From the NCBI GenBank assembly GCA_017528085.1, contig JAFXPH010000004.1:62001-126000 (forward strand): a stretch of 64,000 nucleotides of DNA. The letters run 5' to 3'. The notes under the pieces were generated by a model, which worked only from the letters and a program-made list of their open reading frames with translations, was not told where the DNA came from and did not search any database. This DNA is from Clostridia bacterium. Lineage in GTDB: Bacteria; Bacillota; Clostridia; TANB77; CAG-508. The position numbers were made by a program, and so were the translations under genes. This document shows, one piece after another, positions 42,370 to 48,738 of the stretch. How positions within the stretch are numbered: position 1 is the stretch's first letter; each line of letters starts with the position of its first letter.

Positions 42370-43656
42370 CTATGCAAATGCTTCTTTGCTTTTCTTGAAA
42401 GCAATAAGATTTGTAATATCACTAGCTTTGTTGCTCTTTTTAATGAATTCTTCTTGAGCATCTTGTTTTGCTTGTCTTTCTGCCATTGTCTCACATATAG
42501 CTTTTTGATATGTGAAGTTTGTGTCAGAAGCAATTTTTGTCCAATTATATTTTGCTTTAACTTTTTCAATAGCATTTTTTGAACAAGTTTCAGCTAAATC
42601 TTTATTAAATAGAAGAGTAAGAATTGAATCTGCTAAAGAATTTGGATTTCCACAATAACTCTTCATACCATTTATACCATGATCAACTATTTCATTTAAT
42701 CCACCAGCATCTGAAACTACAACAGGATTTCCTGAAAGCATAGCTTCAATAGCAACTATACCAAATGGTTCATATGTACTAGGGAATACAGATACATCTG
42801 CACATTTGTACATCTTTTGAACATTCTTTCCAGCTAAATATCCAGTGAAGTAAACTTTATCATCTAAGCCTAAAGCATGAACTTGAGCTTTTAATTGATC
42901 TATCATGCCACCTTTACCAGCAACTATTAACTTTGCATCATTATATCCTGCAAGTATTTTTGGCATAGCAGCAATTAAATTTTGAATACCTTTTTCATAA
43001 ACTAATCTACCAATGAATAAAATTATTTTTTCATTATCCATTGCATAGTTTCTTCTGAAATCCCAATCTCTGTCAATACCATCATAAAGATGAAGGTTAA
43101 CACCATTAGGAATTACATTAATTTTTTCATATGGAAGACCAAATAATCTTTGAAGTTCATTCTTCATAAAAATACTATTTACTATAACTTCTGAAGATTC
43201 ATATGTAAGCATCCATTCAGTATCGTTAATATATTTTTGCTCTGGTGTAGATATACCAGAATTTCTTCCTGCTTCCATAGCATGAATTGTTGAAACTATA
43301 GGAGTATTGTAAGCATACTTTAATGTTTTAGCTGCTGATGCAACTAACCAATCGTGAGCATGTATAATATCAAATTTTCCTTTTTCAGCGATAACTTCTC
43401 CGGCTTTTGCAACCATGTTGAAATTAAGTTGAAGGATCCAATCAATGAAATTGTTTGCACTAATCATATAGTTATCAATTCTATAAACTTTAACTCCATC
43501 ATCATCTTCATAGTATGGAGTATTACCATCTCTATAAGTTATTACAGTTACGTCGTTTCCGTCTGCAATTAGACGATGAGATAAATCATAGACAACTCTA
43601 GAAATTCCTCCAACAACTCTTGGAGGATACTCCCATGATAGCATTAAAATTTTCAT
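42370..43656 (-). CDS. GT4-family glycosyltransferase, glycogen/alpha-glucan synthase-like
   Basis: This 428-residue GT-B enzyme starts MKILMLSWEYPPRVVGGISRV, the pattern of glycogen synthase-like GT4 enzymes. IHAHDWLV (about 93-100), INVIPNGVN (about 182-190), the second-domain start KIILFIGRLVYEKG and the acceptor loop YEPFGIVAIEA with the EX7E pair follow. The ATG at 43656 is chosen: AAAGGAAAG is just upstream and a TTG eight codons earlier lies in the ribosome-site region. A charged helical C-terminal tail of about 40 residues is added. It diverges from the DUF4912 and GH57 genes, so it likely builds the alpha-glucan that GH57 branches. Confidence 0.85.
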   Translation of the reverse strand: MKILMLSWEYPPRVVGGISRVVYDLSHRLIADGNDVTVITYRDGNTPYYEDDDGVKVYRIDNYMISANNFIDWILQLNFNMVAKAGEVIAEKGKFDIIHAHDWLVASAAKTLKYAYNTPIVSTIHAMEAGRNSGISTPEQKYINDTEWMLTYESSEVIVNSIFMKNELQRLFGLPYEKINVIPNGVNLHLYDGIDRDWDFRRNYAMDNEKIILFIGRLVYEKGIQNLIAAMPKILAGYNDAKLIVAGKGGMIDQLKAQVHALGLDDKVYFTGYLAGKNVQKMYKCADVSVFPSTYEPFGIVAIEAMLSGNPVVVSDAGGLNEIVDHGINGMKSYCGNPNSLADSILTLLFNKDLAETCSKNAIEKVKAKYNWTKIASDTNFTYQKAICETMAERQAKQDAQEEFIKKSNKASDITNLIAFKKSKEAFA

Positions 43657-44101
43657 CTTTCCTTTGTGTACTCCTTTCAAACAATCAAGTATTTGTCACA
43701 GGTTCGTTGATTTTTAAAATGTGTTTGTCAAGTATTTTTTCTTATCAATTATTTTATATAAAAAAGATTAAAAAGTAAACAAATTTAGTAAAAAGTTTTA
43801 ATAAAAATATATTACATTTTGATTACATTTTGATTACATTTGATAAAAATGTCCAACTGGCATCTAATTTTTAAGAATCGTTTTCATTTTTGGATTGTAA
43901 TAAACCGAATATAAAGTGCGCTATTTAAAGATTAATTTTTTTATGAAAAAATATGATTTTTTAAAATGCGTTTATATATGAAAAATTCTATTAAAAAAGT
44001 TATATTTTCTCTTGTAATTTTTTTTCATTATATATACAATATAAAAAGATTAGAAGTTATAAAAATATACAATAGGTGTTTAATTTTTCGAGGAGGAAAA
44101 A
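43657..44101. other. 445-bp intergenic control region of the glucan locus
   Basis: This very AT-rich divergent region holds no convincing reading frame. Near the GT4 gene a direct repeat TCAAGTATTT occurs at 43685 and 43728. A block of three 11-bp repeats lies at 43811-43842. No consensus promoter pair could be assigned to either flanking gene with confidence. Its length is unusual for this compact genome and suggests regulation. Confidence 0.6.
43811..43842 (+). repeat. Three tandem 11-bp repeats ATTACATTTTG
   Basis: Copies start at 43811, 43822 and 43833; the third lacks one T. The 11-bp period places them on one DNA face, as repeated operator sites would be. They lie midway between the divergent GT4 and DUF4912 genes. 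Confidence 0.75.
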
Positions 44102-45406
44102 ATGTCAGATACTAAAGAAGTAAACGAAAAGAAGAATAACAAACAAGCAACAAAAACAACAAAAACAGCGACAGCGGATAAGAAAACAACAGCTAAAAAG
44201 ATGACAACAACAAAAAAGTCAACTACTAAAAAAGCTGCGACAAAGTCTACAACTGCTGCAAAAAAGACAACTTCTAGTACTGCAAAAAAAGCAAGTGCTA
44301 GTACAAAAACAGCAGCAAAGGAGACAACTACAGCAGCTACAAAAACAAAAAAGACTACAACAGCTACTAAGAAAACTACTGCGTCTAAATCTAAAACAAC
44401 TACAAAAAAGAAAGATGATGTTGTTCTAGAAGTGGTTACACCAAATAAAAAGGGAACAAAGAAAAAAGATGATGTAGTAATCGAAATTGTAGCTCCAAAT
44501 GTAGTAGTAAATAAAGATAATAAAAAAGTAGTATCAAAGATTAAAGTACCAACTGTTGTTGATAAAAGTAAAAAAGAAACTTCTAAATTAAACACTGAAG
44601 CAAAAGATAAAACATTAATAAAAAAAGATGAAGAAACAATAATCGATAAGATTAAAAACTTCTTAAAGAAAATTATCGAAATGCAATCAGAACATAAAGC
44701 TGATGCAGAAGGATCTACAAAAGAGAAAAAAGCAAGAAAGAAAGTTTCAGAAAAAGTAGTAAGAAAACCAAATTATATGCTAGAGTATTACGATCTACCA
44801 TATAGATACAACGAGACAGTTGTTAAGGTTTTAGCACAATCTCCAAATAGATTATTTGTATACTGGGATATTTCTGACAATGACAGACAAAAATATGTAG
44901 AGACTTTCGGAGACAATTTCTTTAATGATACTTATCCAGTATTATTGTTATACAACGAAGATAAGAATTATATTAGAGAAATACCAATTAATGATTTTGC
45001 TAATAGTTGGTACATTGATATTGATAATCCAAAAACAAAGTATTCAATACAATTAGGAAGAAAGTTTAAATCAAAACCTGAGTTTATAAACATAGCAAAA
45101 TTTGAACAAGAGAATGTAATACTTCATAATGACTATTTACCATTCGCAAATTCAAATAAGATTGAAGCTCCTAATGATCATATTTTATTTGAGACATTCT
45201 CAAATAAAATTAAATTTAGAAATGTTAAAACAAATCAAGAAACTATTAAAGATATCAGTGAATTAGCTGGTAAGATTTCTAAAGCATATAACATTGCAAG
45301 CTTTAAAGATATGTTTAGAGAGGTGTATAAAGGAGAAGAATTATCAGATGATAGATTCACACTTAAAAATCCAGCATCTGGAAATCCAACATCATCATTT
45401 AAATAA
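44102..45406 (+). CDS. DUF4912 protein with histone-H1-like Lys/Thr/Ala-rich N-terminus
   Basis: This 434-residue protein has two parts. Residues 1-105 consist of repeated K, T and A (KKTTAKK, KKSTTKK, KKAATKS, KKASAST units), very basic and disordered, like bacterial histone-H1-type tails. Two near-repeats follow: KKDDVVLEVVTPN and KKDDVVIEIVAPN (about 105-142). The C-terminal domain (about 220-434) has YRYNETVVKVLAQSPNRL and FVYWDIS, the DUF4912 mark, with the beta-sandwich look of a carbohydrate-binding module. DUF4912 genes are often next to GH57 genes. The domain may bind glucan while the tail binds an anionic partner (inference). CGAGGAGG precedes the ATG. Confidence 0.8.
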   Translation: MSDTKEVNEKKNNKQATKTTKTATADKKTTAKKMTTTKKSTTKKAATKSTTAAKKTTSSTAKKASASTKTAAKETTTAATKTKKTTTATKKTTASKSKTTTKKKDDVVLEVVTPNKKGTKKKDDVVIEIVAPNVVVNKDNKKVVSKIKVPTVVDKSKKETSKLNTEAKDKTLIKKDEETIIDKIKNFLKKIIEMQSEHKADAEGSTKEKKARKKVSEKVVRKPNYMLEYYDLPYRYNETVVKVLAQSPNRLFVYWDISDNDRQKYVETFGDNFFNDTYPVLLLYNEDKNYIREIPINDFANSWYIDIDNPKTKYSIQLGRKFKSKPEFINIAKFEQENVILHNDYLPFANSNKIEAPNDHILFETFSNKIKFRNVKTNQETIKDISELAGKISKAYNIASFKDMFREVYKGEELSDDRFTLKNPASGNPTSSFK

Positions 45407-45420
45407 TAAGGAGAGATTTA

Positions 45421-47010
45421 ATGAACAATATAAAAGGATATGTTAATTTCGTTTTACATGCGCACTTACCATATATACATCATCCTGAAAGCGAAGATTA
45501 TCTAGAAGAAGAATGGTTATTCGAAGCTATTTCTGAGTGTTATATCCCTCTTTTATTAAACTTTAAAAAATTAGTTGAGGAGGGTGTAGATTTTAGAATC
45601 ACTATGACTATGACTCCGCCACTTCTTAACATGTTAGATAATAAGCTTTTACAAGAACGATATATTAAATATGTAGAAAAACACATTGAACTTTGTGAAA
45701 AAGAGGTAGTACGTACTAAATTTGATGACAGATTAAATAGACTAGCTCACTATTATTTAGATAGATACTCAAATGATTTACATGTGTTTAAAGATATATA
45801 TAAATGTAATTTAATTACAGGATTTAAGGAATTTTTAGACAGAGGTGTATTGGAAATAATTACATGTGGTGCAACACATGGATTCTTTCCAATATTATAT
45901 GTTAATGAAAAAACAGTTAGAGCACAAATTGCAGTTGGTGTTCAAACATATGAAAGATTTTTTGGTAGAAAACCAAGAGGTATTTGGCTTCCAGAGTGCG
46001 GCTATGTACCAGAAGCAGATAAATATTTAAAAGAATTTGGAATAGAATATGCTATGGTTGAATCTCATGCAGCATTGTATGCAGATCCGACACCTATTTA
46101 TGGAACTTTTGCACCTATAGTATCACCAGATGGATTAGTCGTATTCGCAAGAGATATGGAATCATCTAGGCAAGTGTGGAGTTCTATTATTGGTTATCCT
46201 GGTGATTTTAACTATAGAGAGTTTTATAGAGACTTAGGATATGATGCAGATTATGAATATATAAAACCATATATAGCAGCTAATGGTGCTAGAGTAAATA
46301 CAGGTATAAAGTATTACAGAATAACAGGGAAAGATTGTCCTAAAGATTATTACGATGTTCAATGGGCAAAGGATTCTGCTGAGAAACAAGCAGGTCACTT
46401 TATGGATTGTAGAACAGCACAAATAAATAGTTTGGCAAGCTATATGGATGTTCCACCTATAGTTAACTGTCCATATGATGCAGAACTTTATGGTCACTGG
46501 TGGTATGAAGGTCCATATTGGTTATATATACTATTTAAAAAGATATATTATGATGAATGTAACTTTAAATTAATTACACCATCAGAATACATTGACATGT
46601 ATCCTGAGATGCAAGTATGTTCTCCATGTAGATCAACTTGGGGTGCAAAAGGTTACAATGAGGTATGGTTAAATCCTACTAATGATTATGCACATCGTCA
46701 TTTGCACAAAGCAGGAGATAGAATGTGTGAACTTGCTTGGAAGTTTCCAAATGAAGGAGACAACTTAAGAAGACAAGCATTAAATCAATGTGCTAGAGAA
46801 CTACTTCTTGCACAAAGTAGTGACTGGCTATTCATTATTACAAATGGAACAATGGTAGATTATGCTCATAAGGCAATAAAGGATCATATAGGTAGATTTA
46901 CAAAACTTTATAGACAAATTATGAAAGATGAAATTGATCCTGAATATTTACTAGATATATTTACAAAAGATGATATCTTTCCAGATATCGATTACATGGT
47001 ATATTATTAA
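45421..47010 (+). CDS. GH57-family 1,4-alpha-glucan branching enzyme
   Basis: This 529-residue GH57 protein starts KGYVNFVLHAHLPYIHHPES. The catalytic nucleophile is the Glu in GIWLPECGYVPEADKYL, and the acid/base is expected in CPYDAELYGHWWYEGPYWL. A C-terminal DUF1957 helical domain starts near residue 430 (SSDWLFIITNGTMVDYA). By family knowledge it makes alpha-1,6 branches in an alpha-1,4-glucan. It is 14 bp after the DUF4912 gene and faces the GT4 gene, giving a small glycogen-type locus without glgC or glgP in view. Confidence 0.92.
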   Translation: MNNIKGYVNFVLHAHLPYIHHPESEDYLEEEWLFEAISECYIPLLLNFKKLVEEGVDFRITMTMTPPLLNMLDNKLLQERYIKYVEKHIELCEKEVVRTKFDDRLNRLAHYYLDRYSNDLHVFKDIYKCNLITGFKEFLDRGVLEIITCGATHGFFPILYVNEKTVRAQIAVGVQTYERFFGRKPRGIWLPECGYVPEADKYLKEFGIEYAMVESHAALYADPTPIYGTFAPIVSPDGLVVFARDMESSRQVWSSIIGYPGDFNYREFYRDLGYDADYEYIKPYIAANGARVNTGIKYYRITGKDCPKDYYDVQWAKDSAEKQAGHFMDCRTAQINSLASYMDVPPIVNCPYDAELYGHWWYEGPYWLYILFKKIYYDECNFKLITPSEYIDMYPEMQVCSPCRSTWGAKGYNEVWLNPTNDYAHRHLHKAGDRMCELAWKFPNEGDNLRRQALNQCARELLLAQSSDWLFIITNGTMVDYAHKAIKDHIGRFTKLYRQIMKDEIDPEYLLDIFTKDDIFPDIDYMVYY

Positions 47011-47025
47011 TAAGGATGGAATAAT

Positions 47026-47364
47026 ATGAGCACAGTTATGGATAATGCAAATGTTCTTGCAAACTCAATTAGAGAGAGTAAAGAATATTTAGAATATAAA
47101 GAAATCAAAGCAAAAATCTTTTCAGATGCAGATTTAAAAAAACTTGTAGAAGAGTTTGAAAAAATTAGATATGAAGAACAATTATTAGAACTTCAAGGCG
47201 AAAAACAATCTGTAGAGAAGATGCAAAAACTTCAAGAACTATATACAGTTTTAGTTCAAGATAATGATGTAAAAGATTTCTTTGAGAAAGAAGTTAAATT
47301 TAATTTACTTATTGCAGATGTTAATAAAACAATAGGTGATTCAATTAAAGATGTATTAGCTTAA
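47026..47364 (+). CDS. YlbF/YmcA-family protein
   Basis: This 112-residue all-helical protein fits the YlbF/YmcA family (LANSIRESKEYLEYKEIKAKIFSD, then DVKDFFEKEVKFNLLIADVNKTIGD). In Bacillus, YlbF, YmcA and YaaT form an iron-sulfur complex that aids RNase Y and development. Here it lies at the end of the glucan operon, 15 bp after GH57. Whether it acts in RNA decay here is unknown. AAGGATGG precedes the ATG. Confidence 0.8.
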   Translation: MSTVMDNANVLANSIRESKEYLEYKEIKAKIFSDADLKKLVEEFEKIRYEEQLLELQGEKQSVEKMQKLQELYTVLVQDNDVKDFFEKEVKFNLLIADVNKTIGDSIKDVLA

Positions 47365-47369
47365 ATATA

Positions 47370-47403
47370 AAAAAGAGTTTTATTTTAATAAAACTCTTTT
47401 ATT
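47370..47403. terminator. Bidirectional terminator after the YlbF gene
   Basis: A long stem, AAAAGAGTTTTAT with its complement ATAAAACTCTTTT, lies between converging genes. Confidence 0.8.
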
Positions 47404-48565
47404 TTTTGCTTTCTAGTTTTTCTAGTTTTTCTTGTTTTTCTTTTTCTTCTAATGCTTTTGCTTTAGCAAGTGTTTCTTCATTTGCTTTTCTGTGCATTTC
47501 TTCAAAATCTTGCTTTTCTACTAAATCTGGAGCATCTAAAGAATAATATTCATCTATTAATTCTCTATGAAATTTCATATATAAAGAATATGGCAAAATT
47601 GATTTTTTAGCCTCTAGTAATTTATTTATTGTTTGTTCTTCAGTTTTAAAGTAGTTAATATGAATTACTTGACATTGTTTTAGATTGAAAGTAGCTCTTA
47701 CTAAAATATCTTGTAAAATATCAAAATATATTTTTGTTTCTTTTACATAAGAACATACAAAGAACTTACAACTTAAACATTTAACCTTACATCCTTTTTC
47801 AGTATCTAGGTGTTCACATTGCTCTAAAGGAACATTTTTATCTAAAAAATCTGCTTTCTTTTGAGCATGAGCTAAACCAAGATTTCTTTTAAATGAATAG
47901 CAACATCCATTTGCAGTTTCTGGCATATAAGAGCAATTTCTATTTGCTATACATCTGCCATCTCTGAAGTCACAAATATTTCTTGAAATAAATTGATAGT
48001 CTAAAATATCACATAATTTATCATAAACATATGTATAAGTTTCTCTTCTTGTATTAAATATTCTTGAAGCAATAAAAATTGCAATCTCATCATTTATGTC
48101 TTTTGATGTAGTATGAACATCCCCAAGATAGTGAACTGAATTATAATCTACACCAAATGTATAGTTTTTCTTTTTGTATTTATAAAAGATTTTTTTAACT
48201 ACTTTTCCAATTTTAATAATATCTCTTATTTCAATAATAGGAGAAGTATCTACTATAAAGAATAAATTGTTTTCCTCATTCCCAGATTTAGCTATGTTAT
48301 AAATGCTTGCTATATCATACATAACATATGATGCAATCTTTTTTTCAGCTATAAGTAAATCTAATTCTTCATCTGGATATTCTTCTTTTTTCTTATTTGA
48401 AATATATATAATTCTTGTGTTTTTGAAATTTTTATTTAAATTATTTGTACTAGATAATATTTCTAAAAGCTTTTTTGGAAGTCTTGTAGTGAATATGTAG
48501 TTAGTATTATAAACTTCAAGAAACATATTTTCTTTTTGCTTTAAAAGATCTAAATCGCTTTCCAT
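47399..48565 (-). CDS. Unknown cysteine-rich protein, possible metal or Fe-S binder
   Basis: This 388-residue soluble protein has no family I can name. The N-terminal half (about 1-180) is an alpha/beta region with a strand NNLFFIVDTSP. The centre and C-terminal half have clustered cysteines: CDFRDGRCIANRNCSY, NGCCYS, then CEHLDTEKGCKVKCLSC and KFFVCSYV, about ten in under 80 residues. This suggests bound zinc or iron-sulfur clusters. A Lys/Glu-rich coiled tail ends the protein. The ATG at 48565 follows AAGGTGG; an in-frame GTG within that site is discarded. It is a single-gene unit converging on the glucan operon. Confidence 0.7.
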   Translation of the reverse strand: MESDLDLLKQKENMFLEVYNTNYIFTTRLPKKLLEILSSTNNLNKNFKNTRIIYISNKKKEEYPDEELDLLIAEKKIASYVMYDIASIYNIAKSGNEENNLFFIVDTSPIIEIRDIIKIGKVVKKIFYKYKKKNYTFGVDYNSVHYLGDVHTTSKDINDEIAIFIASRIFNTRRETYTYVYDKLCDILDYQFISRNICDFRDGRCIANRNCSYMPETANGCCYSFKRNLGLAHAQKKADFLDKNVPLEQCEHLDTEKGCKVKCLSCKFFVCSYVKETKIYFDILQDILVRATFNLKQCQVIHINYFKTEEQTINKLLEAKKSILPYSLYMKFHRELIDEYYSLDAPDLVEKQDFEEMHRKANEETLAKAKALEEKEKQEKLEKLESKK

Positions 48566-48738
48566 TTCTACCACCTTATAAAAACATAATTAGATTATAT
48601 ATTTTAATATGAAAAAAAACAAGAAAGAAAATGCTGTAATTATTTAAAAATAAATTAAAAAAAACCTTTAAAAAACTATATTTTTTTTGAATTTTATAAT
48701 ATAATATTGAGGAAAATAGATATTCTTGGGAGGAAAGG

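Follow-up and report, generated by a model that had tools for sequence, protein, structure and literature searches.

A DUF4912 protein with a lysine-rich N-terminal tail as a possible localisation adaptor of a GH57 alpha-glucan branching module

Introduction

Why should a protein encoded directly ahead of a glycogen-type branching enzyme carry about a hundred residues of lysine-, threonine- and alanine-rich sequence? The question is raised by a gene in a 64,000-nucleotide stretch of a Clostridia genome (contig JAFXPH010000004.1, positions 62,001 to 126,000; hereafter the window). A first-pass annotation, made from the sequence alone, had described its product as a DUF4912 protein joining a histone-H1-like tail to a likely glucan-binding domain, and had proposed that it organises glucan granules or tethers them to the nucleoid or to anionic polymers. 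For PHB and polyphosphate granules, proteins that tether them to the nucleoid have been described. Here we ask what the tail, the domain and the neighbouring genes say about a comparable role for an alpha-glucan.

Results

The DUF4912 protein and its lysine-rich N-terminal segment

The gene and the parts of its product lie in the window as follows.

44102..45406, + strand: DUF4912 protein gene, an open reading frame with an ATG start (434 aa)
44090..44096, + strand: ribosome-binding site GAGGAGG, read from the sequence, preceding the DUF4912 gene
44102..44407, + strand: Lys/Thr/Ala/Ser tail, residues 1-102 (composition and family comparison)
44408..44437, + strand: repeat 1, KKDDVVLEVV, residues 103-112
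44462..44491, + strand: repeat 2, KKDDVVIEIV, residues 121-130
44618..44710, + strand: predicted amphipathic helix, residues ~173-203 (AF2 model and hydrophobic moment)
44807..45097, + strand: DUF4912 (PF16258) match, residues 236-332 (Pfam profile)
44816..45184, + strand: FN3-like beta-sandwich in the model, residues 239-361 (AF2 model and fold search)
45368..45403, + strand: conserved C-terminal motif NPASGNPTSSFK (alignment)

The Lys/Thr/Ala-rich stretch of about 100 residues reported by the first-pass annotation is real. Residues 1-103 comprise 35 Thr, 30 Lys, 17 Ala, 9 Ser and only 5 Asp or Glu, with Thr, Lys, Ala and Ser filling 80 of the 83 positions from residue 21 onwards. The richest 100-residue stretch of the protein holds 90 of these four residues; in the window's 54 remaining genes (taken as greedy-longest frames) the richest stretches have a mean of 30.7 (sd 5.0), and none exceeds 47. 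Because those genes fall so far below it, the tail cannot be put down to chance or to AT-rich composition. The residues ahead of the DUF4912 domain have a net charge of +37. The comparison with histone H1 holds for lysine richness and fails elsewhere: proline is absent from the first 103 residues as read, and no linker-histone domain was reported in a Pfam scan of the protein (E 0.1). The "tail", moreover, sits at the N-terminus. An open frame antisense to it (44080-44595, − strand, 171 aa) probably just mirrors the low-complexity sequence.

DUF4912 is the only domain that Pfam found in the protein, scoring 60.3 bits against a gathering cut-off of 29.4 over positions 1-100 of the 118-position profile, and no second DUF4912 gene was found in the source genome. 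The two KKDDVV(L/I)E(V/I)V repeats are present as described; they are unique to this protein among the 204 loci compared (all 49 genus loci included), and we rejected them as a conserved element. The predicted helix at residues 173-203 has a hydrophobic moment of 0.585, matched by 102 of 10,000 shuffles, and is modelled with fair confidence (mean pLDDT of 69, 94 and 85 for its ten-residue blocks).

At the other end of the protein, an N-P-S-S-like motif was recognised in 42 of 46 genus proteins and in 31 of 46 from the rest of the family, with a Ser in it at least 90% conserved in our DUF4912 alignment (A3). The motif is kept across the family despite the variable linker ahead of it, and is possibly a docking peptide for GH57.

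The neighbouring genes form an alpha-glucan setting

Three neighbours are relevant.

45421..47010, + strand: GH57 1,4-alpha-glucan branching enzyme, 529 aa (PF03065 plus BE_C), 14 bp downstream of the DUF4912 gene
42370..43656, − strand: GT4 glycosyltransferase, divergent; first ATG at 43656, with a TTG frame reaching 43680
47026..47364, + strand: YlbF/YmcA-family protein, next after GH57 with a 15 bp gap; membership of the unit judged by position only

The GH57 product matched Glyco_hydro_57 at 145.8 bits and BE_C at 124.6 bits (Pfam), and its closest PDB relative was the T. maritima structure 2b5d (E 9e-166), followed by 5wu7 (8.9e-90), with which its regions WLPECGY and PYDAELYGHWW align, and 3n8t (8e-87). 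It is thus a clear relative of the GH57 glycogen-branching enzymes of T. maritima (AmyC), T. kodakarensis and P. horikoshii, the first of which has been re-identified as a branching enzyme (PMC6616209). It scored below the equivalog cut-offs of NF041133 (341 of 1000 bits) and NF041566 (280 of 920), NCBIfam models that are clade-specific judging by their names.

The GT4 neighbour fell under the GlgA cut-off (TIGR02149, 157 versus 302 bits), this being its best match among 51 families. An alpha-glucan phosphorylase is encoded elsewhere on the same contig (TIGR02094, 826 bits). No GlgC above cut-off was present in the genome (96.7% complete), where the best TIGR02091 match scored 30 bits against a required 424.9 and belongs to a gene that reads like GlmU. 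By gene content, then, this is an alpha-glucan locus, bearing out the glycogen-type setting first described, and its pathway is probably not the classical ADP-glucose route, because it combines a phosphorylase with a GT4 below the GlgA cut-off and no GlgC. Since no GlgC passes the cut-off, glycogen accumulation in this organism is something that we infer.

The YlbF/YmcA gene recurs in 54 of 71 sufficiently long loci (of 80 named related loci); its orientation is co-directional in the closest relatives and opposite in those further away. Beyond it lies a frame for a 391-aa cysteine-rich protein without a family (47399-48574, − strand), which gave only a weak, chance-level match and is not encoded in any of the 80 named related loci. 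All the named relatives are assemblies of uncultured Clostridia, and many carry labels that place them in animal guts.

DUF4912 and the GH57 branching enzyme occur together

Across 199 phylum genomes, DUF4912 and BE_C were both present in 97 and both missing from 99, leaving 2 with DUF4912 only and 1 with BE_C only. Among 94 genomes of the order the corresponding figures were 58 with both, 35 with neither, none with DUF4912 only and 1 with BE_C only; two order families (f2 and f5) lack both (0/3 and 0/32). Shared ancestry among the sampled genomes means that these counts do not represent independent events. Of the two genomes with DUF4912 only, G585 fits the association, because its DUF4912 gene directly precedes a GH57-GT4 fusion, the GH57 part of which shows no BE_C; the other, G459, has a weak DUF4912 match whose frame is interrupted by an internal stop.

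GH57 lies downstream of DUF4912 in 78 of 79 genus and family loci, the remaining one ending at a contig edge. Of 97 class/phylum DUF4912 proteins, 91 have GH57 in their locus. Long GH57 frames proved to be fused in frame to a GT4 of the same kind as that in the window (14/14; L289-L300, L196 and L198, these being 14 of the 15 GH57 frames above 900 aa, all but G500:C2). In all 12 fusion loci checked, a DUF4912 gene, often short, stands just upstream. The genomic link between DUF4912 and the GH57 branching enzyme is well supported, and on these sequence comparisons the gene studied here and that for GH57 make up a conserved pair, with which a GT4 is associated.

We found no mention of this partnership in the titles, abstract openings and passages searched. 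The passages on gene neighbourhood in the T. maritima and Petrotoga GH57 papers mention no DUF4912 partner, and the searched text of a Chem Rev review contains no word beginning with DUF; among the papers searched, the term "DUF4912" occurs in one, a cotton callus transcriptome study.

The tail is widespread in the family and absent from sister families

Of 53 genus genomes, 49 have DUF4912 (28/28 among those of high quality), as do 112 of 117 from the family. We compared 92 tails, 49 from the genus and 43 from the rest of the family, with starts chosen by ribosome-binding-site scoring; the comparison left out two loci open at the 5′ end (L057 and L069) and one without a start (L075). The 46 family loci outside the genus are the top-scoring matches of the family and order searches together with four from the class search, and so do not form a random sample. 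The tails range from 48 to 253 residues across the family and show no sequence conservation. Many open with M-P-(R/K)-K, and MPRK itself starts 20 of the 92 (L001-L112), a short conserved beginning before a variable tail.

The family comparison that the first-pass annotation had called for upheld the basic character of the tail for most members and not for all. Net charge was at least +10 in 41 of the 43 tails outside the genus (median 31% Lys+Arg and 7% Asp+Glu), the other two, L101 and L059, being at zero or below. Within the genus it was at least +10 in 30 of 49, and 7 of 49 were neutral or acidic (down to −19). In two sister families (f3 and f4), at most 30 residues separate the preceding stop from the DUF4912 domain in all 11 proteins, which have no tail and no amphipathic helix. 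Absence of the tail from close homologues, named in the first-pass annotation as what would refute its idea, is thus found outside the family and not within it. The tail looks like a single family-level acquisition, since it is widespread in the family and absent from f3 and f4; its basic character seems to have been maintained by most members and to have relaxed in part of the genus.

The amphipathic helix has a narrower distribution: 40 of 49 genus loci have its motif, none of the 43 other family loci does, and the tree shows one origin. Genus tails with the helix have a lower charge density than those without it (median 0.109 versus 0.222; Mann-Whitney p 0.0003; p 0.063 for raw net charge). 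We do not claim that the helix replaces basic charge, because the tree provides one origin and one independent pair.

Distant relatives carry other modules at the same position

We then classified the N-termini of 97 class/phylum DUF4912 proteins, made up of 89 of 123 phylum places (the window's own excluded) and 8 proteins from a class search. The 89 places comprise 30 loci and 58 stretches chosen to spread over families, L189 contributing two; L203 and L204 repeat order genes and stand outside the counts. A membrane-type segment was assigned to 42 proteins from 23 families, by a 19-residue Kyte-Doolittle window of at least 1.7 rather than a trained predictor, and those of L103 and L104 are probably artefacts of a far-upstream start. 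A further 23 proteins have fewer than 30 residues ahead of the domain and 32 have other N-termini; the Lys-rich class was found in none of the 97.

Nucleic-acid-type modules also occur at this position. Rho_N exceeded its Pfam cut-off in three proteins (L118, L163 and L200) and fell just below it in L199, all four encoded beside GH57. A helix-hairpin-helix (HHH_3, E 3.8e-21) was found in L171, away from GH57, and the second DUF4912 copy of the same genome adjoins GH57. A helix-turn-helix match in L184 stayed below the Pfam cut-off. A Glucodextran_B-like match was present in 18 of the 97 proteins; in L118, L163, L199 and L200 it is C-terminal, with the Rho_N match at the N-terminus.

As judged from these domain assignments, the N-terminal segment is interchangeable between lineages, and the variety of anchors at one position suggests a localisation module. 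That one core domain carries so many anchors is our chief ground for taking the tail to be a localisation device. The tethering proposed in the first-pass annotation fits these swaps; its nucleoid target is not the sole candidate surface, given that a membrane helix is the commonest anchor of distant relatives.

The DUF4912 domain models as an FN3-like sandwich

AF2 models were made for the window protein (113 sequences) and for a distant relative, L115 (65 sequences). The best fold match of the former was the FN3-type 6tpt (Z 9.6, rmsd 2.2, 92 residues aligned). The L115 model matched the FN3-type 6tpu_A (Z 9.7, rmsd 2.9, 94 aligned) and tied with 6u4z, a GH76 glycoside hydrolase domain (Z 9.7, rmsd 2.5, 93 aligned). 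DUF4912 therefore models as an FN3-like sandwich, homology not being implied, and the best matches, mostly animal FN3 domains in a tie, are uninformative on function.

FN3-like sandwiches bind proteins as well as sugars, Ig/FN3-type sandwiches are a common scaffold of starch-binding domains, and a carbohydrate-binding module, CBM48, brings GlgB to its polymer. No CBM was matched in the Pfam scan of the window protein, none is named as such among the fold matches listed, and a profile search of the PDB returned no solved DUF4912 relative; MurB and glucodextranase, at E 0.43-0.63, were dismissed as chance-level. The earlier call of a "likely glucan-binding domain" thus drew no support from sequence or fold search, and the modelled fold itself neither shows nor excludes glucan binding.

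Discussion

We interpret the DUF4912 protein as a localisation adaptor of an alpha-glucan branching/synthesis module, a reading that we put at evenly balanced as a whole and whose parts differ in strength. That the protein is an adaptor or partner of GH57 is probable. That its basic tail serves as an electrostatic tether is a real possibility, a little short of even, and that the nucleoid is what the tail targets is doubtful. In the proposed arrangement, the FN3-like domain and the C-terminal motif would dock either on GH57 and GT4 or on the glucan, leaving the N-terminal segment to fix the complex to a cellular surface. The anchor would vary by lineage: mostly a membrane helix among extended forms, Rho_N or helix-hairpin-helix in some, and in the family of the window protein a presumably disordered basic Lys/Thr/Ala tail, supplemented by an amphipathic helix in most of the genus. 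Such a tail would bind a polyanion non-specifically, the likeliest candidate being the nucleoid, as for PhaF and AlgP, with the anionic membrane as another possibility, so that glucan granules would be made and shared out at fixed places.

A membrane adaptor is the strongest rival, because the membrane helix is the commonest anchor in the phylum sample (42 of 97 proteins, 23 families, with L103 and L104 perhaps start artefacts) and the genus adds an amphipathic helix. The tail and helix would then attach together to the inner, anionic surface of the membrane, as the membrane helix of distant relatives would, leaving the nucleoid uninvolved. The helix's high hydrophobic moment agrees with this, as does the example of STBD1, a membrane-bound glycogen-binding protein of animals. 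The helix is, however, confined to one genus clade (40/49, with 0/43 elsewhere), helix and tail are both missing from f3 and f4, and the composition of the tail is that of known granule-nucleoid tethers. We regard the membrane adaptor as rather unlikely. More improbable to us is that DUF4912 is a plain subunit stabilising or regulating GH57, with the tail a fast-evolving disordered linker or solubility tag that has no specific partner. The unconserved sequence and variable length (48-253 residues) of the tail, its loss of charge in several congeners and the adjacency of tail-less sister-family forms to the same GH57 would all follow from this; the 7% Asp+Glu and 31% Lys+Arg of family tails outside the genus (medians) are not what AT-rich drift gives, the window's other genes holding no more than 47 Lys, Thr, Ala and Ser per 100 residues, and the varied anchors at one position speak for a localisation module instead.

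It could also be that DUF4912 is itself a carbohydrate-binding domain bringing GH57 to the polymer, and that the tail does no more than compact or crosslink the granule. An obligate association with an alpha-glucan enzyme, the Glucodextran_B-like match in 18 of 97 relatives, the tie of a GH76 domain with FN3 chains among the fold matches and the frequent use of Ig/FN3 sandwiches as starch-binding domains argue for it. Against it, no CBM family was recognised by sequence and no PDB relative by profile, the fold matches are tied, mostly animal FN3 and silent on function, and the invariant Trp of the VYWDIS strand appears to occupy the place of the FN3 core Trp. We consider this version rather unlikely, on a par with the membrane adaptor.

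The localisation adaptor that we favour has parallels among known granule proteins. PHB granules are tethered to the nucleoid through a histone-like domain in PhaM and PhaF and a helix-hairpin-helix in PhaH (PMC13052382). These proteins likewise combine a granule-side and a DNA-side part, the latter varying by lineage as do the Lys-rich tail, Rho_N and helix-hairpin-helix of DUF4912 proteins; they differ in their polymer, PHB, and in the phasin that forms the granule side, whereas here an alpha-glucan and DUF4912 are concerned and the DNA side, an N-terminal tail, is putative. AlgP of Pseudomonas aeruginosa bears a Lys-rich, disordered, H1-like tail on a polyphosphate granule protein (PMC9239181). 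The window tail resembles it in lysine richness and strong charge; AlgP shares with PhaF proline-containing C-terminal KPAA repeats, whereas the window tail is N-terminal, built of Lys, Thr and Ala, and free of proline, and we found no homology between the tail and AlgP. By sequence, the window protein is not a member of the PhaF or AlgP families, because it has no proline repeats and no phasin domain and carries its tail at the opposite end.

STBD1 provides a third comparison, with an anchor at one end and a polymer-side domain at the other. It is a eukaryotic protein with a CBM20, and in both respects, as well as in lacking homology, it differs from the DUF4912 protein.

A broader proposal, unlikely at present, is that DUF4912 proteins are the missing positioning and segregation system of bacterial alpha-glucan granules: a general GH57-GT4 adaptor whose N-terminus is swapped between membrane, nucleoid and other anchors and which here would act as a nucleoid tether sharing glycogen between daughter cells. 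The basic tail, Rho_N and helix-hairpin-helix would, equally tentatively, make up its nucleoid-anchor class. The word "glycogen" is absent from the available part of a 2025 review of bacterial organelle positioning.

If DUF4912 is an adaptor, it would be a glucan counterpart of the granule tethers, arrived at by a similar exchange of anchors. Whatever the merits of that reading, the near one-to-one link with GH57 gives an uncharacterised domain a firm functional context and makes DUF4912 a likely missing partner of GH57 branching enzymes that have been studied alone in vitro.
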